Below the pieces are notes generated by a model, which made no database searches, was not told the DNA's origin, and worked only from the letters and a program-made list of their open reading frames with translations. Source: a virus. Taken from it: DNA of 25,310 nt. The stretch's first letter is position 1, and each line of letters opens with the position of its first letter. A program made the translations under genes and the position numbers. Shown here one piece after another: positions 7,288 to 23,204 of the stretch. The stretch lies in the IMG/VR virus record IMGVR_UViG_3300011116_000837, positions 1 to 25,310 of that record. One strand, given 5' to 3'.

Positions 7288-9756
7288 TTAGTTAAAGAAA
7301 TAAGTGCTCTGTTCAATTTTAGATATATCCAAAGTTCCACGCTCTGGCGGCTTTGTAAGCTGATCCTTAGCTTCATCTGGTAATTGATTTCTAAAATCTT
7401 CATAAAGCTTACCTAAGTAATCTTCTTTAAATAAATCTACAGCAACTTTTCTAATTATATAATGCAATTGATCTATTCTGTTAGGTGTTGTTGCAAAACT
7501 GTCGTGAACCATTAATAAATTTGGAATTGGTTGAGCGTCGTGTTTACAATACAAGGCAACCCCCATAGCTAAAGCCGCATCTAAACTATGTGTTAAATTT
7601 GCTGATATGGCTGATTGGTTCTTTAAACTATCTTTTTTTACCATCTGCTTTCTTAACGTCGTGTAAACAAGAGACCCAGCTATAGAAGTTTTAACTCGAT
7701 ACTTTTGAAAATATCTGTAATCTTGAATTACAGGAAATCCCATTGGGGAAACCCATTTAATTTCTAAATTATATTTAGAAAATAATTTAGCTGTTTGCTG
7801 TAACCAAACCATTAATGAACTTACTAAATCTAAAGAAGTTTGTAGATGCTTCCAAATAATTGCTGACAACCATTTACAATCTTGAAAACCGTCATCTAAT
7901 AAACATTTTGGTTTACCTAGTTTTACTTGAGATTTATACTCGTCAAAAATCTGCTGGCGAGCTCCAAAAGGTTTTAGACCGTAAAAATATGTCATTACAT
8001 TGCGTTTTACAATGGATCGATCTATTCCAAATTGTAACCAGCGGTTCGCTGCACCATCACCATCTGCAGCAAGTTTCTTTACATCGTCCTCAACTTGTTT
8101 TGCCAACAAACTGTAAATACTTTGCGGTGTAGTTGATGGAAGTACATTTACCATGCTGGCTGTTTGCTCATCTCTACAAATAATACTTAACATTTGAAGT
8201 CCTGAACAAGTAGCATCCATTGCAACAGGTAAATTACATACATATTCAACACCTTGAATTTGAACTTGTTTAACATGATGGCAGGCTTGTAAAAAAAGCA
8301 TTGGTTTATCTGCTTCATTCCATCCTGTATTTTCAAACGGATTTTCTGCGTAACTGCAAATATCTTTTAACCTTTGCTCAGTCCAAGTATATCTCTCATC
8401 AAAAGATACCTTGTCAAAACCAAAACAATTTGCGGTGTGTACGTACAACCAATACTTCCCACGATGTCCGAGTCTTTCTCCATTTTTAAAAGTCATTAAA
8501 GATTTAATCTTCTGATCTGATTGATAATCAAAAATTGTACTCATGCAATAAATCCTACCTCTCTTGTCTAAGAACAAAACAAAATAAAACTGGTCAAATT
8601 TTTGATACTCCTCTAAAATACTTTTAGTAATTTCACAGGTTAAAACTTGGGATACTCTTGCAAGTTCTTCTTGGTGTACCGCTGTCCTGTCTCTTTTAAA
8701 TTTTATTAATAATTCTTTATCAGTATCTACTCTAGGATCTCTAAATACATTTTTAGGAACTCCATTTAAATCTAATAAACTTTCTCTCTCTGGAAATTGC
8801 CCTAAACTTAAACCTTTGTCCCAAATTTCTAAATATACCTTAGACATTTCTTTATCTATTTGAAATGGAACACTCTGAATGTGATTTACAGCTTCATAAA
8901 CATTGTGAACTGATTGATCTTTTAATGAGTTTAAATAATTAAAATCATTAGTCTTAACCAACGGTTGTTTAGACAAATAATCGCTAACGTAACCTCCGTT
9001 AAATGGAGAATTTTTCCATTCCCTAGGTTTAATAATCATGGGTTTATAATAAGGACTAAGAACGGAACACGCAAAATTCTTTTCGTCAATTTTTTTTAAA
9101 ATTTCTGGCTTAAAAACTAAATGATTTACGGTCTTAAATCTTCCTACATTAAACATTTTAATTTCACACAATCCTGTATGTGTAATTAATAAATCAATAA
9201 GTTGATTTCCAACTAAAACTTTTTTAGGGGCATCCCAATTATCCACCTGTACTTGATATTTTTTTAATGTGTGTGAAAAAACTTTTTGTCTGTGCTTTAT
9301 GTTTTTAGTTCTTTTCATTAAATCTCTCATTATTTTTGTGTAGAGATTTGGTAATGTGTTTTTAAACTGCTTAGAATGAACCTCAAGTTCAATCATAGAA
9401 CCTATGTTGTTTGCGATGTGAACTAAGGTTTTATTTAATGATATTCCATCTATTGCCAATTTTATAGTTAGTAAAGCTACCTTTTTACTGTCACTTAAAT
9501 CTTTCAATGGTTCTGCGGCTGTTTTTCTAACTCCTGCTTTTCCTGAATAAGACTCATCTACAAAATTATCTATCGCTAAAGATAAAGGTAATAATAATTC
9601 TTTTTGTAAATAAACATAAGCAGGGGTTACTGACTGCCTACCTTTTTCTAAATTCTTTTTTAAGTTTCTATTAAATCTTGCGGCACCTGCACCAATCATG
9701 CCTTGGCCTTCTAATTCTAATTCTAAATTATATAACTGATCTTCACTCATTTCCAT
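7288..9756 (-). CDS. T7-type single-subunit RNA polymerase
   Basis: This phage RNA polymerase transcribes middle and late genes from its own promoters. With the ATG at 9756 (AGGA six bases upstream) the protein has 822 aa, against 883 in T7; an in-frame TTG at 9762 is less likely. Palm aspartates lie in VAMDATCSGLQ (D514) and MVHDSFATTP (H751, D752), matching T7 D537 and H811-D812. The O-helix region VKRNVMTYFYG (K584, Y592) matches T7 K631 and Y639. DKRGRIYCMS (about 397-406) fits the T7 DxRGR segment. All catalytic residues are kept, so it should be active. Confidence 0.96.
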   Translation of the reverse strand: MEMSEDQLYNLELELEGQGMIGAGAARFNRNLKKNLEKGRQSVTPAYVYLQKELLLPLSLAIDNFVDESYSGKAGVRKTAAEPLKDLSDSKKVALLTIKLAIDGISLNKTLVHIANNIGSMIELEVHSKQFKNTLPNLYTKIMRDLMKRTKNIKHRQKVFSHTLKKYQVQVDNWDAPKKVLVGNQLIDLLITHTGLCEIKMFNVGRFKTVNHLVFKPEILKKIDEKNFACSVLSPYYKPMIIKPREWKNSPFNGGYVSDYLSKQPLVKTNDFNYLNSLKDQSVHNVYEAVNHIQSVPFQIDKEMSKVYLEIWDKGLSLGQFPERESLLDLNGVPKNVFRDPRVDTDKELLIKFKRDRTAVHQEELARVSQVLTCEITKSILEEYQKFDQFYFVLFLDKRGRIYCMSTIFDYQSDQKIKSLMTFKNGERLGHRGKYWLYVHTANCFGFDKVSFDERYTWTEQRLKDICSYAENPFENTGWNEADKPMLFLQACHHVKQVQIQGVEYVCNLPVAMDATCSGLQMLSIICRDEQTASMVNVLPSTTPQSIYSLLAKQVEDDVKKLAADGDGAANRWLQFGIDRSIVKRNVMTYFYGLKPFGARQQIFDEYKSQVKLGKPKCLLDDGFQDCKWLSAIIWKHLQTSLDLVSSLMVWLQQTAKLFSKYNLEIKWVSPMGFPVIQDYRYFQKYRVKTSIAGSLVYTTLRKQMVKKDSLKNQSAISANLTHSLDAALAMGVALYCKHDAQPIPNLLMVHDSFATTPNRIDQLHYIIRKVAVDLFKEDYLGKLYEDFRNQLPDEAKDQLTKPPERGTLDISKIEQSTYFFN

Positions 9757-9905
9757 ATCCAATCCTTAGTGCAATAAACCATTGTAGGTTTATCTTTTGT
9801 TTTCATTTGTCTCACTATTTTAGTGGCAACTTCTACACAGCCATTGTTTATTGATGTCTTTTCAACCACTGTCATTCCTGAAGAAAAATAAACAATAACA
9901 ATCAT
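9747..9905 (-). CDS. Possible small protein before RNA polymerase, 52 aa
   Basis: An open frame of 52 codons fills the gap between the zinc-finger gene and RNA polymerase and overlaps the latter's start by 10 bases. The product starts hydrophobic (MIVIVYFSSGMTVVEK) and then becomes basic (RQMKTKDKP), with two Cys. No convincing ribosome binding site precedes its ATG, so the call rests mainly on position and overlap. Confidence 0.4.
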   Translation of the reverse strand: MIVIVYFSSGMTVVEKTSINNGCVEVATKIVRQMKTKDKPTMVYCTKDWIWK

Positions 9906-9932
9906 TACTTTTAACAAGACCGCAAACCCTAA

Positions 9933-10154
9933 TTAATTTACCTGAATTTTATGCTCGCCAGATCCTTGACAAGATTCACAGGTTGTAATTTTAGATTTGG
10001 TGAAATCAACAAGGTCTAAGACCGCAAATTTGTATCCATTTCCTTTGCAATTTGAACAAATAATTACGCTTGCGGTGTAATCCTGGTGAGCTTCTCTGTT
10101 TCTGCCGAAATGTTTTGTATCGAACGATTTTGTACTTTTTTGTTTGTGTAACAT
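9933..10154 (-). CDS. DnaJ-type zinc-finger protein, 73 aa
   Basis: The product has two CxxCxGxG units, CSNCKGNG and CESCQGSG, about 24 residues apart, which together can bind one zinc ion as in half of the DnaJ Cys-rich domain. The N-terminus is basic. GGAG lies six bases before the ATG. There is no J domain. Short proteins with this double motif are common in phages; a role in protein or nucleic-acid binding is plausible but unknown. The motif TAAGACCGCAAAT, repeated elsewhere, falls inside this gene. Confidence 0.8.
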   Translation of the reverse strand: MLHKQKSTKSFDTKHFGRNREAHQDYTASVIICSNCKGNGYKFAVLDLVDFTKSKITTCESCQGSGEHKIQVN

Positions 10155-10193
10155 AAATAACTCCGAATTGTTGGGGGTTATTTGATGTCAATT

Positions 10194-10235
10194 GGATTTT
10201 AAGTCCTTTGTGTCTACCAATTCCACCACGAGGGC
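10194..10235 (-). other. attP: attP core: 5' half of a tRNA-Leu(UAA)
   Basis: Read on the minus strand, 42 bases match the start of a bacterial tRNA-Leu: acceptor 5' strand GCCCTCG, D-arm region GTGGAATTGGTAGAC, and the anticodon arm GGACTTAAAATCC with anticodon TAA. Beyond the anticodon arm the tRNA pattern stops, so this is not a working tRNA gene. It lies 18 bases after the integrase stop on the same strand, the usual site for an attP core. Integration into a host tRNA-Leu(UAA) gene is the natural reading. Confidence 0.82.
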
Positions 10236-10253
10236 TTAATTAACCGCTTGAAA

Positions 10254-11111
10254 TCAACTAACCAGTTGTTTTAACCTTACCTCTTTAACTGCATCTCTAA
10301 GATCATCCTTTGTAGGATGGTTGTATCTCTGTGTCATCCTGATGTCCTTATGTCCGACAACTTTCTGAACAACGTCGATACCTACCTTTCTTCTTAGAAG
10401 TCTTGTTATAAAGGTATGTCTTAACGAGTGTATTACAAAATCTTTCTCGTCTTGCATACCCATAGCTTTCCTAATCTTCTTCCAAGTATTTTCTACTGAT
10501 GAAAGACTGTAAGGAAAAGGCCTTTCAAAACCTCTTTGTTTTCGTTTATTCAAGATGTCTTTAACTTTATCAAAAATAGGAACGTATCTGTTGTCTCCAT
10601 TTTTAGTATCGTTAAAATAAACGAAACTTTCGTCTATATCTTCCCATTTGGCATTAAGCCACTCAGAAAGTCTGCAACCTGTTTCAATTAAACAAATCCA
10701 CAAATCGCATTTATCCTTGTAACCTAGCATGTGTGATGTGGTAATTAATTTTCGTTCCATATCATCTGTAAAAACAAATTGTCTTTTATTGTTTTCACGT
10801 TCATACTCGATCATAGGCGTACCCCACTCAAATTGAAAACCTCTAACACCTTTAGAATAAGTTAATATTTTAGAAAGTGCTGCAAGTTTTCTATTTGTAG
10901 TGCCTTTAGTGTAAGAAAGTTTATCTTTACAATAAAATTTAAACTCCCTTACAGTTTCTGTAGAGACGTTGTTTACAGTTTGATCTATGCCAAACCATTT
11001 AGAAAAAACGTCTATATTCCTAAGACTATTTTTCCCATCTTTTTGACTAGACCATTCCATAATCCAAACTTTCTCTATTGCTTCTTTTAGAGTTACTTTA
11101 GTGTTGAGCAT
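10254..11111 (-). CDS. int: Tyrosine-recombinase integrase
   Basis: The 285-aa protein has an N-terminal SAM-like core-binding domain (about 1-105) and a C-terminal catalytic domain with the full active-site set: R147 (ETGCRLSE), K170 (DTKNG), H228 and R231 (HSLRHT), H254 (VVGHKD) and nucleophile Y263 (TQRYNHP). A longer frame begins at 11126, but AGGAGG sits six bases before the ATG at 11111, so that start is chosen. It should integrate the phage at the tRNA-Leu site whose core follows its stop. An integrase in a T7-like phage points to a temperate life cycle. No separate excisionase is recognised. Confidence 0.95.
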   Translation of the reverse strand: MLNTKVTLKEAIEKVWIMEWSSQKDGKNSLRNIDVFSKWFGIDQTVNNVSTETVREFKFYCKDKLSYTKGTTNRKLAALSKILTYSKGVRGFQFEWGTPMIEYERENNKRQFVFTDDMERKLITTSHMLGYKDKCDLWICLIETGCRLSEWLNAKWEDIDESFVYFNDTKNGDNRYVPIFDKVKDILNKRKQRGFERPFPYSLSSVENTWKKIRKAMGMQDEKDFVIHSLRHTFITRLLRRKVGIDVVQKVVGHKDIRMTQRYNHPTKDDLRDAVKEVRLKQLVS

Positions 11112-11132
11112 GGATTTCCTCCTCATTTAAGG

Positions 11133-11513
11133 TTATCCCCCCAACAATTCGTTAAGTTCCTCTTTAAGCTTATTTCCTTTATTTGTTAAGTATAATCTTT
11201 TCACTCTAAAATCTTTTTCATCGACTTCAGTTCTTAACAAATTTAAACCTTTACTGTCTTTTCTACTTCTGGGATGTGTACACAGAAGATGAAAATGCAG
11301 CGATATTCTTGTTTTAGTTACTCCAAGCAATTGAGATAAATCCATATTGGATAAACCTTCTTGCATAGCAACACAAACAAAAATATTTATAGTTAAAGCA
11401 TCTATTGTAGTGTCTAACTCCATAAATTTATCACAAGCTTTTTTAATTTTAACAAGTTGTGTTAAATTTAATTTTGCTGGTTGATAACTTTCCCTATCAA
11501 CTTTATTTATCAT
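11133..11513 (-). CDS. MarR-like winged-helix regulator, 126 aa
   Basis: The protein looks like a winged helix-turn-helix regulator. A helix near the N-terminus is followed by INIFVCVAMQEGLSNMDLSQLLGVTKTRISLHFHLL (helices 2-4 with the recognition helix in GVTKTRISLH, about residues 64-73), a wing, and VKRLYLTNKGNKLKEELNELL, a typical MarR end (LTxKGxxL) used in dimer formation. It lies just before the integrase and after the early host-type promoter, so it is a candidate lysis-lysogeny or early-gene regulator; that is inference. No strong Shine-Dalgarno precedes the ATG. Confidence 0.72.
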   Translation of the reverse strand: MINKVDRESYQPAKLNLTQLVKIKKACDKFMELDTTIDALTINIFVCVAMQEGLSNMDLSQLLGVTKTRISLHFHLLCTHPRSRKDSKGLNLLRTEVDEKDFRVKRLYLTNKGNKLKEELNELLGG

Positions 11514-11581
11514 AAGTATATTTTTCTTTCTTTTGTTATTAACATTATTTTAAATATAGCAATGGTTTTAAATTAGTTATT

Positions 11582-11740
11582 TCAGTTTGGTTTACCAAAT
11601 GTTATTAAACATTTACCAAAAGTAATACAATCTGTAGTATCTTCTGGAAGGTTTATTGGAACATTGTAATATTCCACAACTACTATAAAAAATAAAAAAT
11701 TTAGTACGAAATGCCATACTATTTCTGGTTTTGCAAGCAT
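11582..11740 (-). CDS. Small membrane protein, 52 aa
   Basis: A short frame between the early promoter and the MarR-like gene. The ATG at 11740 has GGGAAAGG upstream with suitable spacing. The first half is hydrophobic (VWHFVLNFLFFIVVVEYY, about residues 8-25), one membrane span; the second half is short and soluble with two Cys. As the first gene after a strong host-type promoter it would be made very early. Function unknown. Confidence 0.6.
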   Translation of the reverse strand: MLAKPEIVWHFVLNFLFFIVVVEYYNVPINLPEDTTDCITFGKCLITFGKPN

Positions 11741-11801
11741 GTTAACCTTTCCCTGAGTGTAAGTTAATTATTTTTTTTATATAAAGATATTAAATATATA
11801 T

Positions 11802-11830
11802 TCTATAGATATAAATTATATCGATGTCAA
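11802..11830 (-). promoter_or_regulatory. Sigma-70-type early promoter
   Basis: On the minus strand TTGACA (11830-11825) is followed after exactly 17 bases by TATAGA (11807-11802). This is a near-consensus host promoter pointing into the 52-aa membrane gene, MarR-like regulator and integrase, and it is well placed to start early transcription leading to the phage RNA polymerase. Confidence 0.65.
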
Positions 11831-11857
11831 TACTATTTTAATATCAAAATATATTTT

Positions 11858-11902
11858 ACAAAAGCAATTGTAACTAAGTAAATACAAAAGCAATTGTAAC
11901 TA
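11858..11902. repeat. 19-base direct repeat upstream of the early promoter
   Basis: ACAAAAGCAATTGTAACTA occurs at 11858-11876 and again at 11884-11902, 26 bases apart (about 2.5 helix turns). The core CAATTG is palindromic. The pair lies 28 bases upstream of the -35 box of the early promoter, where an activator or repressor could bind. No protein is assigned to it by sequence alone. Confidence 0.6.
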
Positions 11903-12150
11903 CGGTGATAGTGAATTTTTGAAAAAAATTTTTAAAGTGTTAAGTTTAAGTTTAAAATTTATATATAAAGTTTGTACTAATTTAATTTTAATCCGACTAA
12001 TTTTGTAGGAATTAAAAAACATAGATAAACATCTATTTTATTAGCTAATTTAAAATTATTAGAAATTAATAATAAATTTAGACCGCAATATATTTATTAA
12101 ATATTAAGTAATTATAATGAAAAATTAAATCTAAATTTAAGAAATAAATC
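11903..12150. other. AT-rich non-coding stretch
   Basis: No supported gene lies here. A small hairpin ATAGAT-AAAC-ATCTAT (12021-12036), followed by TTTTATTAG, could weakly end plus-strand transcription. One copy of the GCGGTCT motif (minus strand, 12080-12086) is present. Otherwise I see only AT-rich sequence. Confidence 0.4.
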
Positions 12151-12303
12151 CTAATAATTTTTAAGGCAAATAATAGAAATTGCTAAAAATATTAAATTTA
12201 ATGGAAATTGACCTAAAAAAATAAATATTAATACTAATGAAGATAAGCCCCCAAAAATTCTTAATGAATAAAATAAATTAGTAATTGATTTAATGTTTTT
12301 CAT
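12151..12303 (-). CDS. Small membrane protein, 50 aa
   Basis: A short frame with AAAAGGGCGG shortly before the ATG at 12303. Nearly all of the product after residue 13 is hydrophobic, with two likely membrane segments (about 16-30 and 33-47) separated by GQFP. It is transcribed toward the early promoter region and lies divergent to the amidotransferase gene. Its leader AAAGGGCGGTAC resembles that of the plus-strand genes at 12544 and 16022. Function unknown. Confidence 0.55.
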   Translation of the reverse strand: MKNIKSITNLFYSLRIFGGLSSLVLIFIFLGQFPLNLIFLAISIICLKNY

Positions 12304-12543
12304 GTACCGCCCTTTTATATTTAATGATTAAAAACCTAAGAAATTAAACAATTTTGAATAAAAATTAATTTTTTAAGTGATTTGTTTTTACTATTTACCA
12401 TTAAAAAACCTTATAAAACAGCTCATTTTTTACTGAAAAAGCTATATAAATCAATGGTTTAATTAGATTGTTTTAATATTATAAATAGTATTAATATCAA
12501 TATTAACTGGGTAATTAAAACTAACTAAAAAAAGGCGGTCTAA
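12304..12543. promoter_or_regulatory. Divergent intergenic control region
   Basis: This 240-base AT-rich stretch separates a minus-strand membrane gene from the plus-strand amidotransferase gene and must hold promoters for both. Several AT-rich boxes (such as TATAAA near 12479) could be -10 elements, but none has a clear partner. The plus-strand leader ends AAAAAAAGGCGGTCTAA before the ATG, so the ribosome site overlaps a copy of the GCGGTCT motif. Confidence 0.35.
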
Positions 12544-13521
12544 ATGTGTGTAATAATTTGCGGAAATCCGAACAATATAAAAACGGAACAGTTAAAAAAT
12601 GCTTACGAGAAAAACCCTCACGGGTTTGGCTTAATGTATTTAAAAAATAAAAATATTGTTGCTGTTAAATATTTGCCAAAAAATTTTAAACAAGTTTTAA
12701 AAACTTTTGACAAGCATAAAAATAAAACAAATCAAATCGCAATACATTTTAGACTAGCAACAGTCGGTTATAAAAATAATTTTAATTGCCACCCTTTTTT
12801 CATCACTAATGAAAAATTATTTGGCGACACTTTCGACTGTGCTTTAATGCACAATAGCCCGTTAATACCCGCCCCTCTATTATCTGAAAAATATTCTGAT
12901 AGTTATTATTTTAGTAGATATATTTTAAGACCAATATTGAAAAATAAACCCGAATTAATTTTAAATCAAAGTTTTTTAAATGCTTTAGATAAAATAATAA
13001 ATGCGGAATGCGATACCCGAGTTTTATTATTAAATAATAAAAACAATTCATTTATTTTTCTTGGCGAGTGGCACGATTATAAAAATTTAAAAGTATCGAA
13101 TACTTATTCACTAGAAAATTATTTTGGAAATTCAATTTCTAGTGATGATTATTTTAATACACCATATAAAAGCGGTCATAAATATTTTAATGATGATGAC
13201 AGCGATTATAAATTCAAATCATATTCTAAAAAAGATTTAACAGAATTAAAAGAAAATGATGAAAAAATATTAGATCAAGTAAATCAAGATCAAATTAAAT
13301 TAGAGGAAAATCAAATTCAAATTGATGACACTAATTTAAATGATGAAAATAAATTATTTAAAAATGAAAGTAAATTAAATGGTGAGGAGATAAACCATTA
13401 TAATAATATTTTTTCAAATTCATCTTTTGAGGAAATTTATAAAGAAATTGAACATTTAACACCCGCAGAAATTGCGATTTTACTTTCTGAAATTCAAAAA
13501 AATAAAAAAGAGGTTGCTTAA
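12544..13521 (+). CDS. Class II glutamine amidotransferase-like Ntn hydrolase, 325 aa
   Basis: The protein begins MCVIICG, so removal of Met would expose Cys2 as the N-terminal nucleophile of a class II amidotransferase. Typical elements follow: NPHGFGLMY (24-32), the substrate-binding segment IHFRLATVG (67-75), NCHPF (81-85) and the MHNSPL turn (102-107). Such domains release ammonia from glutamine or cut amide bonds. Residues after about 215 form an Asp/Asn/Lys-rich, poorly ordered tail. The stop is followed at once by the amidoligase ATG (GCTTAAATG, with GAGG upstream), so the two are co-translated. Paired amidotransferase and amidoligase genes are known in comparative studies of phages and bacteria; the joint product is not known. 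Confidence 0.8.
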   Translation: MCVIICGNPNNIKTEQLKNAYEKNPHGFGLMYLKNKNIVAVKYLPKNFKQVLKTFDKHKNKTNQIAIHFRLATVGYKNNFNCHPFFITNEKLFGDTFDCALMHNSPLIPAPLLSEKYSDSYYFSRYILRPILKNKPELILNQSFLNALDKIINAECDTRVLLLNNKNNSFIFLGEWHDYKNLKVSNTYSLENYFGNSISSDDYFNTPYKSGHKYFNDDDSDYKFKSYSKKDLTELKENDEKILDQVNQDQIKLEENQIQIDDTNLNDENKLFKNESKLNGEEINHYNNIFSNSSFEEIYKEIEHLTPAEIAILLSEIQKNKKEVA

Positions 13522-15477
13522 ATGATTGATATTAATTTAGAAAAATATTCAAATTTAATTTTAGATAAACAACTTATTTCGGTTTTAAGGTGGTTTAAAA
13601 ATAATAAAGTTTATTCTTTTGTAGATAATTTCAATAACATTTTTGATACAAGTTTAATCCGTGAATTTAGGTATCACAAACCACTTTTTGAAAGTTTTAA
13701 AAAAAATAGATTAATTGAAAATTTTTCAGTCACTACAAATGAAAATTGTGAAACTATACCAAGCGGGAAAACTGATTTAAAATTTTTAGTTCAAATCGAA
13801 CATTTTTTAAATGCAATAATATTAAAAAGTTTTTACAGAAAAAATACAACTTGTAATGACGGCGGTTTAATACCTAGCCCAATTCACGATAAATATAAAA
13901 ATGATTTTAAATTAGAAAGAACAGTTTTAAGAAATAATTATTATTGGCATTTTAAAGATTTAAATTTATTTGAAACTTATTATTTATCGAGATTTAAGTT
14001 CAAAAATGTAATTTTAAATTTAATTGATAACGAATTAAATGACTATCGTTATAATTTTGAAAAATTACAATCATTTATAAATATATTAAATGATCTAAGA
14101 AATTTATTAAAAGATTTAAATATTAATTTAGATAAATTAGCGATTAACCAAGACGCATTAACGGGCTTATATTGCCATAAAAGTTTACTATCATCTTTTT
14201 ATAAAAACATTGAAAAAAGAGAGTTAAAAGAAATTATTTGCAATCATCATCATTTAAAAATTTTAGCAAGTCAAATTGATAACAATTATAATTTTGATTG
14301 TGATAAATATATTTTAAAGCCGTTTGTAATTAATTTTAAAAATATTAATAACAGTCAACTTTCATTAAATCGCCATGCTTATATTTTAAGTCGGTACAAC
14401 AATTCGGGCGGATACGATAGCCCCGAATTTTATTTCATAGAAGAAATTAACACAGTAATAAATAAAAATGATAAAAAATTTATTGAATTTAATTTCATTA
14501 ATTTTAAAACTAATAATAATTGTCTTAGATCACGGGACGCAGATATTACACAAATGTTCCCGTTCGGTCGGTTATCTTTTGAAAGTTTAAATTCAACTTT
14601 TTTCGGGGTTGAATTGGAATGCTATGTTCGTGAAGATTATCTTGATGATAATAGAGGAAAATTGCCTTACAAATTACTAGAAGAAGAAATCCTTAGAGGA
14701 ACGGCAATTTGTAAAGAGGACGGAAGTTTAGGACAATACGGGGTTGAATTAAACACAGTTCCAATGACTTTAAACTATATTCAAAAAAATGATTATTTTT
14801 TAAAATTTTTTGAACAAACTAAAAAAATGTTAACTAGCTACGATCGAGAGGAAACGGGTATTCATATTCATATTAGTAGAAATAATTTATCAAGGGTTGA
14901 TATAATGAAAATCCAACAGTTTATAAACGATCAAGTTAATTTAAAATTTATTGTTAAAATGTCGGGTAGAAATCCAAATAGATATTGTCAAGTCAATGAC
15001 CGCTTAAAATTAAATCAATTTAAAAATAATTTATTTAGATCAGATGAAAAATTTTTAGCGGTTAATGTATCTCACAAAAATTCTATTGAATTAAGAATAT
15101 TTAAAGGAACAATAAACCCTATTACAATCCACCGACAAATTGAATTTTGTGCGGGGTTGGTGCAATTTGTAAAGAGTACCGCTTATAATCAACTATCATA
15201 TCAAGATTTTATTAAATTTATTCAAAGTTATAAAAATATATTCCCTTTATTAAATGAATTTAATTTAAAATTTATTGAAAATCCCGCTTTCAAAATTTCT
15301 GAATTAAAGGGGATTAAAACCTATACTAATAAATGTTTAAAACAAATTGAAAAAAGAAATATAACTTTAAAGCCCCCAGTATTTAAAATAATTAAAAACC
15401 ACGATTATAAATCGCCTAGAAAAACTAAATTAAAAACCGATCATTTTTTCACTAATGATGCAATCAACGAAAATTAA
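13522..15477 (+). CDS. Amidoligase (glutamine-synthetase-fold COOH-NH2 ligase), 651 aa
   Basis: The C-terminal half carries the amidoligase signature: FFGVELECYV (360-369) with E364 and E366, KEDGSLGQYGVEL (398-410), TGIHIHIS (445-452) and NSIELRIFKGT (520-530). These match the metal- and ATP-binding strands of the amidoligase family, which joins a carboxyl group to an amine. The first 340 residues are a long Asn/Lys-rich helical region I do not recognise; it may select the substrate. The partner amidotransferase immediately upstream could supply ammonia or trim a peptide bond. Targets could be a peptide, a cell-wall peptide or a virion protein. AT-rich codons and the opposite strand set it apart from phage core genes. 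Confidence 0.82.
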   Translation: MIDINLEKYSNLILDKQLISVLRWFKNNKVYSFVDNFNNIFDTSLIREFRYHKPLFESFKKNRLIENFSVTTNENCETIPSGKTDLKFLVQIEHFLNAIILKSFYRKNTTCNDGGLIPSPIHDKYKNDFKLERTVLRNNYYWHFKDLNLFETYYLSRFKFKNVILNLIDNELNDYRYNFEKLQSFINILNDLRNLLKDLNINLDKLAINQDALTGLYCHKSLLSSFYKNIEKRELKEIICNHHHLKILASQIDNNYNFDCDKYILKPFVINFKNINNSQLSLNRHAYILSRYNNSGGYDSPEFYFIEEINTVINKNDKKFIEFNFINFKTNNNCLRSRDADITQMFPFGRLSFESLNSTFFGVELECYVREDYLDDNRGKLPYKLLEEEILRGTAICKEDGSLGQYGVELNTVPMTLNYIQKNDYFLKFFEQTKKMLTSYDREETGIHIHISRNNLSRVDIMKIQQFINDQVNLKFIVKMSGRNPNRYCQVNDRLKLNQFKNNLFRSDEKFLAVNVSHKNSIELRIFKGTINPITIHRQIEFCAGLVQFVKSTAYNQLSYQDFIKFIQSYKNIFPLLNEFNLKFIENPAFKISELKGIKTYTNKCLKQIEKRNITLKPPVFKIIKNHDYKSPRKTKLKTDHFFTNDAINEN

Positions 15478-16012
15478 TAAATAAATTTCCAGCACCAGCA
15501 CCAGCACCAGCAACGACAGCAACATTAGTGGCAGTAAAGCCCACCTAAAAAAACAAATATTATCAACTATCATTGTTTTATTTTGCGGTCTAAAAACCTT
15601 GCATTTCTTTACACCGCAAATGAAATCAAATTTATTTAATGTTTTTTAAATTATTTTTTTCCCCGCACCGTGTAGAAACTAAATTTAAAACAATAAAATA
15701 TATTAATAAATTTAATTATAATTGCGGTCTTTTAGGGATAGTTCCCGCCCTAGTGCATGGCAGAAATATTAATATTATTATTTAATTATATTAAAAGTTT
15801 TTACGGTCTTAGTATTATTGATGAAATTATGACCGCATATATTTTTTAGTTTATTATTTAAAATTAAAATTTGGGGTACTCAGGTAGCCACCCGCCCCCT
15901 GAATCGAAGTCTAATGCAATCCTAATAAGTTTTTTTCTAAATGTTTTTGTATTAAAATTGATATTGTATTGAATTTGATATAATAATACTTTTATAAACA
16001 AATCAAAAAAAG
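15478..16012. other. Non-coding region with GC-rich hairpins and repeats
   Basis: About 0.5 kb with no well-supported gene. It begins with four tandem CCAGCA units (15489-15512). GC-rich patches stand out in AT-rich DNA: TTTTAGGGATAGTTCCCGCCCTA (about 15730-15752) can form GGGA-TAGT-TCCC or the competing TAGGG...CCCTA hairpin, and 15872-15896 can pair TCAGG with CCTGA. The GCGGTCT motif or variants occur at 15585, 15724, 15803 and 15830. A 30-codon frame (15757-15849) lacks a ribosome site. A terminator or small RNA after the amidoligase is possible. Confidence 0.4.
15958..15984 (+). promoter_or_regulatory. Candidate host-type promoter for the small-gene cluster
   Basis: TTGATA (15958-15963) and TATAAT (15979-15984) are spaced by 15 bases, slightly short, on the plus strand. 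They lie about 40 bases before the first gene of the small-gene cluster, which has a strong AAAAAAAGGTGG ribosome site. Confidence 0.45.
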
Positions 16013-16021
16013 GTGGTTAAT

Positions 16022-16219
16022 ATGTTGGATAACTTTTTAGATGACACGCTAATAATACTTTTAGGGGTTGCTTTAAGTTTTATTTTTCTAGGGTTGGCGA
16101 CAATGTTAAATAATTATTTAGAAGATAAATATAAAAAGAAATCAATCAAAGATACTTATTTTTATTATTTAATTAATAACAACAAGAATAATAATAATAA
16201 AAATTCTGGGGGGTTTTAA
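16022..16219 (+). CDS. Single-span membrane protein, 65 aa
   Basis: The ATG at 16022 is chosen because AAAAAAAGGTGG precedes it; an in-frame GTG at 16013 lies within that ribosome site. The protein has one hydrophobic segment (about residues 9-29, LIILLGVALSFIFLGLATML), then a charged part and an Asn/Lys-rich end. It is first in a string of four small plus-strand genes, and its stop lies close to the next start. Function unknown; membrane attachment is the only inference. Confidence 0.65.
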   Translation: MLDNFLDDTLIILLGVALSFIFLGLATMLNNYLEDKYKKKSIKDTYFYYLINNNKNNNNKNSGGF

Positions 16220-16221
16220 TT

Positions 16222-16419
16222 ATGCCAATTAAAACTTTTGAAAATTTAGATCAATATAAAATTGAATTAAAATCAAAACACAATCAAGAATTATTAAAAA
16301 TATATTATAGCTATAATGATAATTTAAAATTGGGGTACGGGTTGCCTATTGAATTTGATTTGGTTTATTTAGAATTAGAAAAAAGGGGCTTTCAATTTGA
16401 TGGCGAAAGGGTTGCTTAA
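16222..16419 (+). CDS. Hypothetical protein, 65 aa
   Basis: Soluble small protein, MPIKTFENLDQYKIELKSKH at the start, with a likely helix then LGYGLPIEFDLVYLELEKRGF. GGGGGG eight bases before the ATG is the ribosome site. Its end (GGTTGCTTAAATGA) overlaps the next start and is identical over 14 bases to the junction between amidotransferase and amidoligase. No family recognised. Confidence 0.65.
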   Translation: MPIKTFENLDQYKIELKSKHNQELLKIYYSYNDNLKLGYGLPIEFDLVYLELEKRGFQFDGERVA

Positions 16420-16734
16420 ATGAATATAAATTTACAGAAAAGATTTTATTCAAGAAAATTAGATCAATTAAATTTATATGATCTAATTAAAATTCTAAAT
16501 AAAAATCTAAATGAAAATCAAGATAAAATAAAACTTCAAAAAATCTTAGATCAAGTAATTATTACTTATAACTTTAATAAACACAGATCAAATTTGCGGT
16601 CTAAGAAATCCAAGCAGGTGGTTAATCAAGTCAAGACCGCAAATGTAATTAAGTATCTTAACACTTTTGATGAAAATTTTAAATTAACTACCTGTGAAGG
16701 TGCGGAAGGTACTGGACTGAAGGTTGGTGTTTAA
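16420..16734 (+). CDS. Hypothetical protein, 104 aa
   Basis: A basic, helix-rich protein (Lys/Asn/Leu) with a short Gly-containing tail (CEGAEGTGLKVGV). The start follows the previous stop directly (TAAATG), with AAGGG as ribosome site. Two copies of the GCGGTCT motif face each other inside the gene: ATTTGCGGTCT at 16593-16603 and its exact reverse complement at 16634-16644, an 11-base inverted repeat with a 30-base loop. No known domain is seen. Confidence 0.6.
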   Translation: MNINLQKRFYSRKLDQLNLYDLIKILNKNLNENQDKIKLQKILDQVIITYNFNKHRSNLRSKKSKQVVNQVKTANVIKYLNTFDENFKLTTCEGAEGTGLKVGV

Positions 16735-16738
16735 TATT

Positions 16739-16945
16739 ATGGTAAATCTATTTAAAAATAAAAAGTTATTAAACGAGGTCTTTTTAAGTCATTTAAGCAA
16801 CTTTCAAGATTTGTATAATAAAGCTATAAAAGAAAATAAAAAATTTATTGAGTGGAACAATAGGAAATTTTCAATAAATTATAGTAAAAACCTTTTGGAT
16901 TATTTTAAGTCTAAATATAGATTGCCCAATTTAACCAAGCATTGA
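16739..16945 (+). CDS. Hypothetical protein, 68 aa
   Basis: The frame is open from a TTG at 16724 but the first ATG is at 16739, four bases after the preceding stop, so coupling is likely. The product is basic and helical (LFKNKKLLNEVFLSHLSNFQ at the start) with an aromatic-Lys-rich end. It is the last gene of the plus-strand cluster; a terminator hairpin lies about 140 bases downstream. No family recognised. Confidence 0.55.
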   Translation: MVNLFKNKKLLNEVFLSHLSNFQDLYNKAIKENKKFIEWNNRKFSINYSKNLLDYFKSKYRLPNLTKH

Positions 16946-17085
16946 ATTTTATTTAAAGGGCAATAAAAGGTTTTAATCGTTTAAACTATTGCGGAACAAA
17001 TCAATTATAAATAAAAAAAACTGATAACGGGTGGGAACTCGTTTAAACATAAATAAAATTTACAATTATCAATTATATTTAAAAT

Positions 17086-17108
17086 AAAGGATTGCTAATC
17101 CTTTTTAC
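17086..17108 (+). terminator. Rho-independent terminator, possibly two-way
   Basis: AAAGGATT (17086-17093), a GCT loop and AATCCTTT (17097-17104) form a perfect 8-base-pair stem followed by TT and T-rich sequence. It ends the plus-strand small-gene cluster. The other strand also has A/T-rich flanks, so it may act both ways. Confidence 0.6.
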
Positions 17109-17476
17109 TTTGTCGATCAATAAACTAATAATAATGCGAACAATTTAAACCCGCAATTTTTAACACAACTGGGGGTTGCACGGGGGGTTTTTTGGATAGT
17201 GAAGAAACCGAGATACCCTTTCATATTTTTTTAACAAAACAAAAGCCTGCCTTAATTTTCGACACGCTAGTAATTAGGATGCCCTCTTGGAGTGTGGACT
17301 TAAGGTTTACTTTAGATCTACTTATAAGTGTTACTTATAAGTGTTACTTATAAGTTTAATCTTATTATTGTTATCTATATATAACTTAATACTTATAAGT
17401 TTAACTTATAAGTTAAACATTAAGTTTAAACATATAGGTATAGACCACTGCAGTCGATACCCTTACATGTCGACAC
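17109..17476. other. Non-coding genome-end-like region downstream of terminase
   Basis: No gene is supported. It contains two G tracts (GGGGG and GGGGGG near 17169-17186) that can pair in part with ACCCGCAA upstream and are followed by T6, the element AGGATGCCCTCTTGGA (17276-17291), and a group of palindromic repeats described separately. Lying between terminase (the usual last gene) and the island, it is a good place for packaging or terminal-repeat signals. Confidence 0.45.
17320..17413. repeat. Five copies of the palindrome ACTTATAAGT
   Basis: The perfect 10-base palindrome occurs at 17320, 17333, 17346, 17391 and 17404. The first three and the last two are spaced by 13 bases and the gap in the middle is 45 bases. 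The array begins 64 bases after the terminase stop. Short repeat arrays next to the terminal repeat are known in T7; a similar packaging or regulatory role here is inference. Confidence 0.75.
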
Positions 17477-19108
17477 TTAGGTGTCCATCCATAAGTCGCC
17501 TTTAGGTTTTCTACCTATGGCATGTTCCATAAACTTCTCAAGTTCCATATTAAGCTGCTTCTCTTTATGGCTTTCAACTGCTCTACTATTATCCACTGCT
17601 AATTGTTCAATCCAATAAGCTACAGCTATAGACAACGCATCTATTCTGTCGTCATTTCTAAGTGAGCCTCTATCTTTTGTTATTCTAGTTAATTGATAAA
17701 ACAATTGATAATGAGGGTCTTGAGTGTCGAAATCTTGTCGAATAACTTGTGGACTTACAATTAATCGATGTTGGTTCATTAAAGGCTCTAACGTATCTAT
17801 GATACGTAACTCCTTTTGTTTACTATGGTTTACTTCTTCAATGTGAACAGGATGATATTTATTTACAATTGGTTTTAACAATTGAGTAAACATCCCATCT
17901 CCAAAGTTACTTTCAACTACAATTGCATTTACTTTAGCATCTCTAGCTAAGGTAGCAATTTTGGTCAGATTACTTTCGGAGTATCCACCTTGTAGTCCGA
18001 CACAAAGTTGAACATACAAGTTACCGTGAAGTTGTTTTACAATGCAGACTCCGAGTTCATCACTTCCTCGACCACTAGGGTCAATAGCCATTACTGAACC
18101 TTGATACGCTGTAAATTCATTTGAAACAAACATAGGCTTATGAAACCTGTCTCCTGTAAATCCAACACTTGGTAAATCTTCACAGATATATTCTGGGGAT
18201 CCTGCCCAGGCTAATTGAACGGGTGCAATATTGTTGTCGATATCCATAACAACTAAATCAGATAATTTTAATGGAAATCTTTCTTTGTCGGACAAACTGG
18301 TGTCCAGCATAAATTGTAAAGCAAATCCTGAACGTCCATAAGACGCTTCTCGTTCTTTTAAATCTAAATCAGTAAATCTTAAAGGATCTATAGGTTGTCC
18401 TTCTTCTAAATTTTGATTAACAATAAATGGTGCTAATTTATTTCCATACTTAGCAATCCTATCTTTTAATGGCTGCCTAGCTGTCCATATTCTAGTTTCA
18501 TATCCTCTACTTGGAAGATCATTATACAAAGACATATCTGATTGTGGAGTTCCTAAAAATATAATTTTACCATTAGGAGATAACACCGCTTCAAATTCTT
18601 TTACGTTATCAGATAACTTATCTCTCATTCCTTGTGTTAAAGAATTATTTAAACTTTCACAGTCATCTGAAATAATAAAATTAGCACGTGAACCTGTAAG
18701 TTGGCCTGTAATTCCTACTGACTTAACACTCGGTGAGTGAGACGCAGTAGCTGGTGCAACATCAAAACTTACATTTGACCCACGCTGGTCACTACGGGGA
18801 GCAAGATGTTGTAATATGTCCATCTCTAAAATTAGACGTTTTGTAAATGTTGAGAAATCATCGGCTCTGTTTTTAGATGCCGACACAACGAGGAATTTTA
18901 GGTTTGGATCTTTTAAAAGGTTCCAACACACAAATGCAGAACAAATCCACGATTTACCTACACCTCTAAAAGCTTGTATTACAGAACGTCTAGGGGAGTT
19001 TTGTAGATAATTTGCTATATCATACTGTACGGGTGTGGGATTAGGTAATCTTAGGTGTTTCCAAGCTAAATACAGAAAATTCCTAAAATCGTCCTTAACT
19101 TCTTTCAA
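17477..19108 (-). CDS. T7 gp19-like large terminase subunit
   Basis: The 543-aa packaging motor has an ATPase domain with Walker A AFRGVGKS (about 46-53) and Walker B FIISDDCE (about 143-150), a coupling motif FLGTPQSD, and a nuclease domain starting MAIDPSGRGSDE (D342). This fits T7-type terminases (586 aa in T7). The best start is TTG at 19108, with GAGAGGG four bases upstream; there is no nearby in-frame ATG. It is the last minus-strand gene of the late region and follows the small terminase-like gene, as in T7 (18-19). Confidence 0.93.
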   Translation of the reverse strand: MKEVKDDFRNFLYLAWKHLRLPNPTPVQYDIANYLQNSPRRSVIQAFRGVGKSWICSAFVCWNLLKDPNLKFLVVSASKNRADDFSTFTKRLILEMDILQHLAPRSDQRGSNVSFDVAPATASHSPSVKSVGITGQLTGSRANFIISDDCESLNNSLTQGMRDKLSDNVKEFEAVLSPNGKIIFLGTPQSDMSLYNDLPSRGYETRIWTARQPLKDRIAKYGNKLAPFIVNQNLEEGQPIDPLRFTDLDLKEREASYGRSGFALQFMLDTSLSDKERFPLKLSDLVVMDIDNNIAPVQLAWAGSPEYICEDLPSVGFTGDRFHKPMFVSNEFTAYQGSVMAIDPSGRGSDELGVCIVKQLHGNLYVQLCVGLQGGYSESNLTKIATLARDAKVNAIVVESNFGDGMFTQLLKPIVNKYHPVHIEEVNHSKQKELRIIDTLEPLMNQHRLIVSPQVIRQDFDTQDPHYQLFYQLTRITKDRGSLRNDDRIDALSIAVAYWIEQLAVDNSRAVESHKEKQLNMELEKFMEHAIGRKPKGDLWMDT

Positions 19109-21181: not shown

Positions 21182-21751
21182 TTATTCAGGTTTAAATTGG
21201 TTAAAGTCTTTATGATAAAAGTTTAAAGCTACACTTATTCTCTCATCATCAGACATATTAGGTTCAACTGAATGAACTATGTAAGCAGGAAATAGAATTA
21301 AATCGCCAATTTTAGGGGTTATTCTGTAATAACTTCTACCACTTACTAAATGACCTTGTGTATTTATTTCAAATTTTTCAATAAAAGACATCGCACCTCT
21401 AGGGTCGTGTAATAATAAATCACCACATTTATCAGAAGTTTTTACATAATAAACTCCAACAACAGTATTAGTATTGTGATGATGAGGAGTATTAAAACCA
21501 AACTTTTTTGTTATTGTAGTCCAACTTTTAGTTATAAATAACTCTACTGTTTTATTATTATTTAATTCTTTTAAATATAATTCGGCTTCATCTATAAATA
21601 TTTTATTTAGTTCAATAGCTTCTTCTATTGGAAGATTATCAGTTAAGTTATTTTTAAAACCTAACTTCATACATTTACCAATTTTTCTTCCTAATTCTTC
21701 AAAATTAGGCATTGATATAATTTTAATTGGTGTACTAAATAAATTTATCAT
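21182..21751 (-). CDS. Putative 2OG-Fe(II) oxygenase, 189 aa
   Basis: The double-stranded beta-helix signature of the phage 2OG-Fe(II) oxygenase family is clear: TPHHHNTNTVVGVYYV (88-103) gives the first iron ligands, DLLLHDPRGA follows (111-120), FPAYIVHSVEPN holds the distal His160, and ERISVALNF holds R171 for 2-oxoglutarate. Such enzymes hydroxylate proteins or small molecules. The first metal motif is His-rich rather than a plain HxD. The start lies directly after the SPASM gene stop (TAGTATG). As the last gene of the modification cassette it may act on the same target as its neighbours. Confidence 0.82.
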   Translation of the reverse strand: MINLFSTPIKIISMPNFEELGRKIGKCMKLGFKNNLTDNLPIEEAIELNKIFIDEAELYLKELNNNKTVELFITKSWTTITKKFGFNTPHHHNTNTVVGVYYVKTSDKCGDLLLHDPRGAMSFIEKFEINTQGHLVSGRSYYRITPKIGDLILFPAYIVHSVEPNMSDDERISVALNFYHKDFNQFKPE

Positions 21752-21752
21752 A

Positions 21753-23204
21753 CTAATAATTCATTACTGTTTCAGGTTTTTTCATTAACCTATCTATGAA
21801 ATCTTGAGAAATAATTTCAATTTTGTCGTGCATATTATCTCGTCTTGGAGTTCCTTCTATGTAACGTAATACTCCGCCTGTAAGTCTGTATAATGCAGAA
21901 GCTAACATAGCTACGTTGTAATTGTATGAAACATCACAGGCTTTAGTCCAATATTCATTTTCTAAAAATAAACACGCACCTTTACAAAGTTGAACTACAG
22001 GACATCTCACACATTCACTTCTAGTTCTAAAGTGATGAACTAAAGTCATTTCAATAGCTTTAATATCTTTATAAGTTCCTGTGTTATGTCTTGGAAGATT
22101 TGCATTAACATTCTGACAAGTCATTGTGTTGCCTTTTAAATCTACTGCAAGAATTTCAGGATTATCCATTCCGCACTTTTGACCAAATACTGTAAATGGT
22201 CTTTGTGTTTTTATAGAGTTAAAAAAATCATCTAGTTTTTGAAAAACTGTAGATACACTTAAAGTAGAACCAAAAGCCGCTTCTTCAAATAAAACTTCTT
22301 TCATTTCTTTTTGTTCTTCAGGAAGTGTTGGAGATAACATCATTCCACCAGCATCGTAAGGAAGCATTATTTCTTCTGTTGTCAGAGGAATGTCGAATGG
22401 TTGTAATCCCATTTTTTCTGCTATGTATTCTCTAACTTTATGTAATGAATAATTCTTAACTGTAAGAACACAGTTAAAACCTATTCTGCCTTTAGGAAAT
22501 AAAATTTTGTAAGCATATTTAACTGCTTCTAAAGTTTTAGGTACAGTAAGAATATCCTCTCCCCTTTGGTCTCTATAAACTGCACCATCGTGAGATATAC
22601 CTACTTGAAAATCTAAACTATCTAACCAATCAACAATCTCAGGAGTAAGCATTGATGCGTTAGTGATGATATTAAATTCAGCTTTAGGAAATTTCTTCCT
22701 TAATCCTTCTGCCAATACTTTTAATACTTTTATATAAACTAATGGTTCTCCACCCCAAAATTCCCAACGAGTATTATTACCATCTCCTTTAAACCAAGTA
22801 TCTAATTCATCTAAAAACTTTTGTGCTTCAGCAGGATTTCCTTGAAATGAATTTGGTACAAATTGAGCTTGGTTACAATAACTACAAGAGTAATTACATT
22901 TTAAACCCATCTGAATTTTTACATTGTTTGGCTTATCAGATTTTTTTGCAGGGTTACTTGGGGAGTTAGGTGTCCACTCGTGAAAGTGTCCCTTAGTATA
23001 TTCCATATTTATACTCTCTAACGATACAGGTATTCCATTTTCTGTAAGTTCAGAAGTATGCGGTTTATACATTAAATATCTCCAACCCTTTGGGTACTGA
23101 AGATGTAATTTGTATTCTGGTGGATTACTGGTATCGTAAGTTTTAATTATCTCTGGTTCTTTTTTCTTCCAAGAAGCAAAGTTATACTCTTTTGAGTTAC
23201 TCAT
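21753..23204 (-). CDS. Radical SAM/SPASM peptide-maturase-like enzyme, 483 aa
   Basis: The radical SAM cluster motif is CNYSCSYC (C103, C107, C110), with FWGGEP (149-154) for SAM binding. The C-terminal part has the full seven-Cys SPASM pattern: C344-x13-G-x4-C363, then C398-x2-C401-x5-C407-x3-C411, then C423, which binds two more iron-sulfur clusters. SPASM enzymes usually modify peptides or proteins (sactipeptide, ranthipeptide and sulfatase maturases). The first 90 residues are an extra domain that could recognise a substrate. It lies between two 2OG oxygenases, in the late-gene string with two virion-type proteins upstream. No ribosome site is obvious at the ATG. The reaction is not known. 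Confidence 0.9.
   Translation of the reverse strand: MSNSKEYNFASWKKKEPEIIKTYDTSNPPEYKLHLQYPKGWRYLMYKPHTSELTENGIPVSLESINMEYTKGHFHEWTPNSPSNPAKKSDKPNNVKIQMGLKCNYSCSYCNQAQFVPNSFQGNPAEAQKFLDELDTWFKGDGNNTRWEFWGGEPLVYIKVLKVLAEGLRKKFPKAEFNIITNASMLTPEIVDWLDSLDFQVGISHDGAVYRDQRGEDILTVPKTLEAVKYAYKILFPKGRIGFNCVLTVKNYSLHKVREYIAEKMGLQPFDIPLTTEEIMLPYDAGGMMLSPTLPEEQKEMKEVLFEEAAFGSTLSVSTVFQKLDDFFNSIKTQRPFTVFGQKCGMDNPEILAVDLKGNTMTCQNVNANLPRHNTGTYKDIKAIEMTLVHHFRTRSECVRCPVVQLCKGACLFLENEYWTKACDVSYNYNVAMLASALYRLTGGVLRYIEGTPRRDNMHDKIEIISQDFIDRLMKKPETVMNY

Follow-up and report, generated by a model that had tools for sequence, protein, structure and literature searches.

What do two abutting genes of a T7-like phage produce, and of what use are they to a virus whose core genes run in the other direction? 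The question is raised by positions 12,544 to 15,477 of a viral DNA (IMG/VR record IMGVR_UViG_3300011116_000837), analysed here over its whole length of 25,310 nucleotides and called the window below. The product of phage amidotransferase-amidoligase pairs was reportedly predicted by Iyer et al. in 2009, and that prediction is said to have stood open since; in the literature the product is guessed at by prediction only.

Genome Context of the Gene Pair

The window has an HTVC019P-like gene order, with a single-subunit RNA polymerase and a T7-type terminase, in agreement with the T7-like phage proposed by an initial annotation of this DNA. The integrase mentioned there is also present, and all listed core genes indeed lie on the strand opposite to the pair. 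The features of the region are the following:

10254..11126, minus strand: tyrosine integrase (profile matches)
11133..11513, minus strand: phage transcriptional regulator (phrog_9665) adjoining the integrase; its HTVC019P counterpart is annotated as MarR-family
11514..12543, no strand: AT-rich intergenic stretch from regulator to pair, with an exact 20-nt direct repeat and a mini-frame
12544..13521, plus strand: class-II (Ntn, N-terminal Cys) glutamine amidotransferase-like protein, 325 aa (profile, fold model, residues)
13522..15477, plus strand: PF12224 amidoligase, 651 aa, with the core at about 355-595 and a lineage-specific N-terminal region at 1-345 (Pfam, fold model, residues)
16013..16219, plus strand: small protein, found downstream of the pair in relatives as well, with a hydrophobic segment that on visual inspection probably spans the membrane
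16222..16419, plus strand: small protein with a conserved counterpart in L003, a close relative
16420..16734, plus strand: small protein conserved in L003
16736..16945, plus strand: small protein, 97% identical in L003 (dN/dS 0.027)
17164..17240, no strand: stretch separating island and terminase, conserved at 80-85% identity in relatives; a candidate genome-end or packaging element

The pair had been described as an inverted island flanked by non-coding DNA, and each half of this description needs qualification. The inversion stands as far as the strand is concerned, but no colinear operon has been interrupted by it: the island sits between the terminase and the regulator/integrase, which in HTVC019P lie near the right and the left genome end, respectively. 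The window is a partial contig, apparently assembled across the genome ends. The same placement between terminase and integrase recurs in all seven related records that reach 1.5 kb past the integrase; the lineage comprises 12 distinct related contigs, several locus identifiers (e.g., L014, L100, and L195) denoting one contig. Upstream, the flank is the AT-rich intergenic stretch, whose repeat occupies 11857-11876 and 11883-11902, whereas downstream four small plus-strand frames (16013-16945) have homologues in L003 with dN/dS of 0.03-0.32. The last of them weakly resembles a 65-aa island protein of L014 (24% identity, pairwise E 0.006). The hydrophobic mini-frame at 12151-12303 (minus strand) is not counted as a conserved part of the locus, as among eight loci examined it occurs in three (the window, L019, and L021) and is absent from L014, L015, L016, L018, and L020.

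Two Predicted Enzymes

The amidotransferase domain spans approximately residues 1-195 of the first protein, the C-terminal part being predicted at low confidence. The initial annotation had called this protein an N-terminal-Cys Ntn hydrolase, and both residues and fold agree: of 33 aligned amidotransferases, 32 keep Cys2 (for the remaining row the chosen frame does not include the start), and R70, H103, N104, and D119 are found in all 33. The R, HN, and D motifs belong to the glutamine site of class-II amidotransferases. The Gly following the Asn of this motif is Ser in the window protein, as in six of the 33 rows in all. Taken alone, the window protein gave no match in a single-protein scan and scores below the Pfam class-II cut-offs (14.2 bits for GATase_4, cut-off 23), while GATase_4 recognises 23 of the 33 members at E 0.01 and the family profile retrieves GlmS from the PDB at 3.9e-8. 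Its model matches the glutaminase domain of GlmS with Z 14.0 (rmsd 3.7, 173-175 aligned residues) and, about equally well, EgtC with Z 13.3. The product of 12544-13521 is, as judged from conserved residues and a modelled fold, a putative class-II glutamine amidotransferase, predicted to hydrolyse glutamine.

The ligase frame is not a chance one, as it matches PF12224 with 24.5 bits (cut-off 22); 39 of 46 aligned homologues match the same family at E 0.01. The amidoligase core motifs noted earlier are conserved throughout, with E364, E366, E409, H448, R483, N515, E523, and R525 present in 46 of 46 rows, so that loss of Cys2 or of the metal-binding Glu residues in homologues, which the initial annotation had named as evidence against its proposal, was not seen. 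A profile search of the PDB with the ligase alignment returned no credible match. The predicted core is superimposable on YbdK (Z 13.1 and 12.8; rmsd 3.6 over 217 residues for the top match) and plant glutamate-cysteine ligase (2gwc; Z 12.0), with glutamine synthetases slightly lower (Z 11.7 and below). By its model the ligase core is of the glutamate-cysteine ligase/glutamine synthetase fold, for which ATP-dependent amide formation is predicted. Identity to the solved structures is 9-14% in the top three rows for the ligase and 13-15% in the top five for the amidotransferase.

Gene Junction, Linkage, and Selection

No base separates the amidotransferase stop codon (last base 13521) from the ligase ATG (first base 13522), and a GAGG closely precedes that ATG, which makes the translational coupling suggested earlier plausible. 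In 19 of 33 clusters the two genes touch or overlap. Linkage of the two genes elsewhere, whose absence would have told against the pair, proved to be the rule: the ligase adjoins in 67 of 71 viral loci found with the amidotransferase alone, and the amidotransferase adjoins in 78 of 80 loci found with the ligase alone, although these two sets are not independent, as they have contigs in common and the ligase set is limited to the best 80 of 566. All six misses are at contig ends.

An ATP-grasp ligase follows the pair in 22 of the 71 loci and is associated with it in 45 of the 80 ligase-found loci (best 80 of 566), and a gamma-glutamyl cyclotransferase lies beside it in one locus, L024. In a survey of flanking frames (145 chosen by script from 33 representative loci, 111 of them scanned) ATP-grasp was found five times and every other family in at most two members. 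None of the models of known anti-phage systems match the pair.

Low G+C (24.0%, vs. 31.9% for the RNA polymerase gene) would suit a functionless passenger carried by an AT-rich stretch. Such a passenger is extremely improbable, given a dN/dS of 0.098 against a relative 88% identical, indicative of purifying selection, together with the invariant catalytic residues and the conserved layout; spurious frames were rejected on the same dN/dS and residues.

The N-Terminal Region of the Ligase

The initial annotation had left a 340-residue N-terminal region of the ligase unexplained; it can now be accounted for in part. The region, most of which is modelled at low confidence, is common to this lineage and occupies the place of a cysteine ribbon in other ligases. 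Outgroup ligases carry two CxxC pairs before the core (C253, C256, C270, and C273, invariant in 8/8 rows), whereas no CxxC pair was found in the equivalent part of six out of six members of this lineage. Note that the ribbon marks a subgroup of phage amidoligases and does not define PF12224. The region mostly evolves fast: in four pairs its dN/dS is 0.26-0.40 and that of the core 0.09-0.13. The comparison with L003, over the sequence the two have in common, shows no such acceleration (0.111 before the core, 0.098 elsewhere), and values of 0.5-0.8 between the window and distant relatives are unreliable, dS being high or saturated. Comparing this region between phages could reveal the target of the enzyme.

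A Putative Amide-Forming Module

We favour, at somewhat better than an even chance, the reading that the pair is a glutamine-dependent amide-forming module, with a probable envelope or peptide target, that hinders competing phages or host functions. Glutamine would probably be the nitrogen source for an amide formed on a target molecule. Cys2 of the amidotransferase would hydrolyse the side-chain amide of glutamine, releasing ammonia; the conserved Glu residues of the ligase would bind ATP and metal, and the ligase would activate a carboxylate as an acyl-phosphate, from which the amide could form. We infer that ammonia is transferred between the two enzymes, as we do the substrate class and the biological role. 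The substrate, most likely recognised by the fast-evolving N-terminal region, would most likely be a carboxylate on a peptide or envelope component of the host cell, the envelope being a guess. Its modification, in the early phase of infection or after integration, could work against competing phages or host functions. Besides the folds, residues, linkage, and purifying selection described above, this reading draws on the assignment of published cassettes with the same parts to peptidoglycan modification, on the conserved small hydrophobic protein downstream, and on the ATP-grasp and cyclotransferase neighbours seen elsewhere, which suggest that amide or peptide bonds are made or broken at gamma-glutamyl-like groups.

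EgtC is a gamma-glutamyl hydrolase in ergothioneine synthesis. As its score about equals that of GlmS, ammonia donation is not singled out, and the pair might instead attach and remove gamma-glutamyl groups, the ligase adding one to an amine and the Ntn hydrolase removing it later. This would fit the slightly higher scores of YbdK and glutamate-cysteine ligase over glutamine synthetases, and the gamma-glutamyl cyclotransferase gene found beside the pair in L024 and among the parts listed for the UFV-P2 cassette (PMC3890496). The gamma-glutamyl-binding residues fit both uses, hence they do not decide. In metabolism, an amidotransferase adjoining an amide ligase is the prevalent layout, and we regard attachment and removal as rather unlikely.

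Possible Roles in Infection

Two readings of the biological role, each compatible with either reading of the enzymes, were weighed. Lysogenic conversion was put forward in the initial annotation; the pair would be expressed from the prophage, by a promoter directed against the lytic genes and controlled by the adjoining regulator, and would protect the lysogen against superinfection. The opposite strand, the adjoining regulator and integrase, the recurrence of this layout in the seven related records, the small hydrophobic protein downstream, and the intergenic repeat, a candidate operator, are consistent with it. In the form stated, however, the proposal was not supported. No attachment site or tRNA-like match was found in 9700-17500 by a covariance search, which short tRNA pieces would escape (its sole match, to a microRNA family at under half the cut-off, was taken as chance). 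The lineage ligase alignment found no relative among genome contigs that could be a host or prophage copy; with the amidotransferase alignment there was nothing beyond a weak Micrarchaeota match (E 3e-5). A promoter scan gave 50 hits against 47.9 expected from shuffles, i.e., no excess. Only eight of 33 clusters have the pair mostly opposite to its neighbours (≤0.3), compared with 13 mostly co-directional (≥0.7) and 12 in between, in a survey of 74 pairs whose frames were picked greedily, a crude method that suffers most in G+C-rich loci. In many other phages the pair lies among replication genes. T7-like cyanophages bearing an integrase integrate without stable lysogeny, according to PMC8776855, so that an integrase in a T7-like phage need not imply stable lysogeny and lysogenic conversion is weakened. 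We consider it possible but doubtful.

Alternatively, the pair may be a lytic host-takeover gene set in the genome-end slot of T7-like early genes, amidating a host protein or metabolite during infection. The island does lie in the genome-end region, pairs in phages MEP401 and MEP402 are beside primase and helicase genes, and the early products of phage SU10 seen by mass spectrometry include an amidotransferase and an ATP-grasp-like enzyme, as given in PMC4281155. However, the pair is transcribed oppositely to the remaining early genes and the promoter scan picked out no early promoter, and we hold this reading tentatively, at somewhat short of an even chance. A more specific and quite speculative idea, which we think improbable, is that in integrating T7-like phages the island works on its own as a unit that modifies the envelope and so excludes superinfecting phages; it would consist of the amidotransferase, a ligase in which a fast-evolving target-recognition region stands in for the cysteine ribbon, and the small membrane protein, which would bring the enzyme to the inner membrane.

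Comparison With Known Systems

Amidotransferase-amidoligase pairs are common in phages, and the window pair is a divergent version, corresponding to the core of a published podovirus cassette. This "peptidoglycan modification cassette" is described for PSA-HP1, RIO-1, phiEco32, LUZ24, tf, and PaP3 (PMC5498523) and includes that of UFV-P2 (PMC3890496), and the assignment of cassettes with the same parts to peptidoglycan modification is given as a hypothesis (PMC5498523; PMC10580990). The initial annotation was right that published work proposes functions for such pairs: the literature, as partly accessible, predicts cell-wall modification and superinfection exclusion, and the same portions report neither an activity nor a product. 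As in the podovirus cassette, amidoligase and class-II amidotransferase genes are close together in the window, but here they are on the opposite strand, with the amidotransferase first and no cysteine ribbon. The OM43 phages MEP401 and MEP402 also have an amidoligase (PF12224) and an amidotransferase, overlapping by 10 bases (PMC10580990). Differently from the window, their genes are in reverse order and co-directional with primase and helicase, and their ligases, 22-24% identical to ours, have the cysteine pairs. The Manatee Spring podovirus ctgrD200 (MW202733) likewise has an amidoligase and an amidotransferase together with an integrase and a phage RNA polymerase within a single stretch; unlike in the window, its pair is on the strand of the integrase and RNA polymerase, with the ligase first and a cysteine-rich N-terminus. 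YbdK and glutamate-cysteine ligase, on the one hand, and GlmS and EgtC, on the other, share the catalytic-domain folds predicted for the two window proteins.

Neither ATP-grasp (phrog_2599) nor gamma-glutamyl cyclotransferase (PF06094) was detected in any of eight records (the window and seven related, partial ones), and ATP-grasp was absent from the window frames. What is new here is the placement of the island between terminase and integrase, with a small, probably membrane-spanning protein and with no ATP-grasp or cyclotransferase gene found, as is a ligase that has, in place of the cysteine ribbon, a lineage-specific N-terminal region mostly evolving faster than its core; with fewer partners, this lineage is a simpler setting of two enzymes for seeking the reaction directly.

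Gene organization and phage lineage

The virus record, 25,310 bases in length, carries two adjoining frames on its plus strand:

12544-13521, plus strand, amidotransferase of 325 residues
13522-15477, plus strand, amidoligase of 651 residues

The stop of the first frame abuts the start of the second and GAGG lies upstream of the amidoligase start, a gapless arrangement consistent with the coupled translation proposed in the initial annotation. The pair does lie opposite the phage core genes, as had been claimed: the remaining large genes (DNA polymerase, RNA polymerase, integrase, regulator, terminase and radical SAM protein) are all on the minus strand. Their order is that of Pelagibacter phage HTVC019P read in reverse. 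The terminase is ~59% identical to those of pelagiphages and Rhizobium phages, whereas the RNA polymerase is merely ~33% identical to pelagiphage enzymes, which by sequence comparison places the window phage in a T7-like lineage of its own. HTVC019P has a linear genome with the terminase close to its right end and the regulator and integrase close to its left; the inverted island, located between these genes, would therefore fall where the two genome ends meet, and assembly of the contig seems to have run across this point. Between island and terminase, a stretch (17164-17240) that is 80-85% identical among relatives adjoins ACTTATAAGT repeats (17319-17422); together these may be elements of the genome ends, as in a T7-like phage.

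Elsewhere in the window, a protein with a terminal run of Cys-X repeats is found near a radical SAM/SPASM gene resembling peptide maturases and a TIGR02466 family protein (24809-25309, 21753-23204 and 21182-21751, all minus strand). The same Cys tail accompanies two radical SAM genes in the related contig L003 (7785-11452), and in both phages the setting looks like one in which enzymes modify a phage protein.

Conserved residues and predicted folds

The amidotransferase begins Met-Cys and had been described as an N-terminal-Cys Ntn hydrolase. Loss of Cys2 was looked for, and the residue is kept in 32 of 33 homologues, the exception lacking its start in the frame used; R70, H103, N104 and D119 are present in all 33. 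After the conserved HN, Ser replaces Gly in 6/33 rows, including the window. The domain spans residues 1-195 (10-residue mean pLDDT at least 85 up to residue 190), and its model resembles the glutaminase of GlmS (Z 14.0) and EgtC, the gamma-glutamyl hydrolase of ergothioneine synthesis (Z 13.3). By sequence, the family profile reaches GlmS at 3.9e-8; the window protein alone scores under the Pfam cut-off. This profile also matches (E 4e-36) a phage C75C1 protein (OQ984151; viral locus L011, 5001-5897) labelled gamma-glutamyl cyclotransferase, a label that, given the match, looks wrong or partial.

The ligase core motifs likewise held up. The protein matches PF12224 (24.5 bits, cut-off 22), and E364, E366, E409, H448, R483, N515, E523 and R525 are invariant across 46 ligases, including the predicted metal-binding Glu residues E364/E366, whose loss was looked for. 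The predicted core (residues 354-596) resembles YbdK (1tt4; Z 13.1, 217 residues aligned at rmsd 3.6), plant glutamate-cysteine ligase (Z 12.0) and glutamine synthetases (Z about 11). Most likely, the amidotransferase would free ammonia from glutamine, and the ligase, using ATP, would join it to a carboxylate. By analogy with ergothioneine-synthesis enzymes, the two proteins could instead be a gamma-glutamyl ligase and a gamma-glutamyl hydrolase; the residues and fold are common to this rival and to ammonia transfer.

Ligase residues 1-345 could be aligned only within the lineage in the alignments made here, and their predicted structure is weak across most of the region. A structure search found the uncultured phage protein A0A6J5M539, aligning along nearly the entire length (26%). 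Two CxxC pairs precede the core in other ligases (8/8 rows), and none was found there in the six lineage members examined. In four pairs of related phages, dN/dS is 0.26-0.40 for the N-terminal region versus 0.09-0.13 for the core; this contrast is absent between the window and L003, since over their shorter common stretch the pre-core value is 0.111 and the whole 0.098. We infer that the N-terminal region acts in target recognition.

Linkage of the two genes

With the amidotransferase alignment as query, 71 loci were recovered from viral contigs, and 67 of them also contain an amidoligase frame; in the other four (L020, L079, L080, L083) the amidotransferase is at a contig end or within ~300 bases of one. 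When ligases of eight other loci were aligned as the query and the top 80 of 566 relatives were kept, the amidotransferase was present in 78/80, always on the same strand (78/78), and in the two remaining loci (L127, L155) the contig stops at the ligase or just after. The two sets share contigs. The initial annotation had considered that the genes might never be linked elsewhere; they are. When the pairs are grouped into 33 clusters, the two frames touch or overlap in 19 of them. A phrog_2599-type ATP-grasp ligase occurs near the pair in 22/71 loci of the first set and 45/80 of the second (the top 80 of 566); L024 has a gamma-glutamyl cyclotransferase nearby. In another phage lineage (L024 1-9234, L025 1-8629) the pair is ligase-first, with the cyclotransferase gene adjoining in L024, and is, as judged by eye, opposite terminase-like and portal-like genes.

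The T7-like lineage comprises 12 related contigs, some broken off inside the pair: ten found via the amidotransferase (L014-L023), L003 and L199. Ligase identity to the window is 88% in L003 and about 29-34% in the others. Contigs long enough show integrase and amidotransferase separated by 0.7-0.85 kb, then ligase, small proteins and terminase, with the pair opposite RNA polymerase. An RNA polymerase-only search returned 25 loci, and all seven extending at least 1.5 kb past the integrase have an amidotransferase beyond it, on the opposite strand. Downstream of the pair, a small protein (61-68 aa) that contains a hydrophobic segment occurs in the window, L003, L014, L019 and L089; L021 has a similar frame by inspection, outside the alignment. 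Relatives with full terminases 79-81% identical have ligases 30-34% and amidotransferases 42-48% identical (63% for partial L023), the pair being far more diverged than the terminase. Its G+C content in four phages is 20.8-25.4%, versus 30.3-31.9% for RNA polymerase. The pair is a real, selected and conserved module.

Among four small island frames tested, 16736-16945 is the most conserved (97% identical in L003, dN/dS 0.027). A hydrophobic 50-52 aa mini-frame (window 12151-12303, minus strand; L019 7599-7757; L021 3515-3673) is oriented divergently to the pair and located 223-244 bases ahead of it in 3/8 loci examined. Counting both strands, GCGGTCT occurs eight times in the window (0.34 expected), mainly in and around the island (9917, 10019, 12080, 12535, 15585, 15724, 16596, 16634), once directly before the amidotransferase start; L003 (1540-2522) has four (0.18 expected) and other island contigs checked at most one each.

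Relation to lysogeny

Lysogenic conversion, suggested earlier, is possible but not supported in that form. The window phage has an integrase and a regulator; a covariance search around the island (9700-17500) found no tRNA-like attachment site, genome contigs scanned with the lineage ligase alignment gave no prophage copy, and a promoter scan gave no excess. In the parts of the literature consulted, a related T7-like phage is reported whose integration site, in a freshwater SAR11 genome, is a tRNA-Leu gene (PMC6811365), and T7-like cyanophages integrate without stable lysogens (PMC8776855). By a crude count the pair is mostly co-directional with its neighbours in 13/33 clusters and mostly opposite in only 8/33; as a general rule, then, the pair has no fixed tie to lysogeny. 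An exact 20-nt direct repeat, TACAAAAGCAATTGTAACTA (11857-11876 and 11883-11902), between regulator and pair, is a candidate operator.

Comparison with known phage enzyme pairs

The description of such gene pairs reportedly goes back to Iyer et al. 2009. A later article does no more than cite that work (PMC7824862). Genes of this kind are attributed, by prediction, to the modification of peptidoglycan and to superinfection exclusion (PMC5498523, PMC10580990, PMC11318856), and related ligases are discussed in the setting of phage-host conflict (PMC4431377). UFV-P2 is listed with genes for amidoligase, amidotransferase, ATP-grasp and AIG2 (PMC3890496), and phage tf with the pair (PMC3517423). 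Early gene products that mass spectrometry detected include, in another listing, an amidotransferase and an 'ATP-graze' enzyme (PMC4281155). A literature search, in which subscription journals were thinly covered, did not turn up any account of the pair from this T7-like lineage. The label of full podovirus cassette was rejected because neither ATP-grasp ligase nor cyclotransferase was found in the window and seven related records, all partial. The module is a variant of an already known phage enzyme pair, and the variant itself is new.
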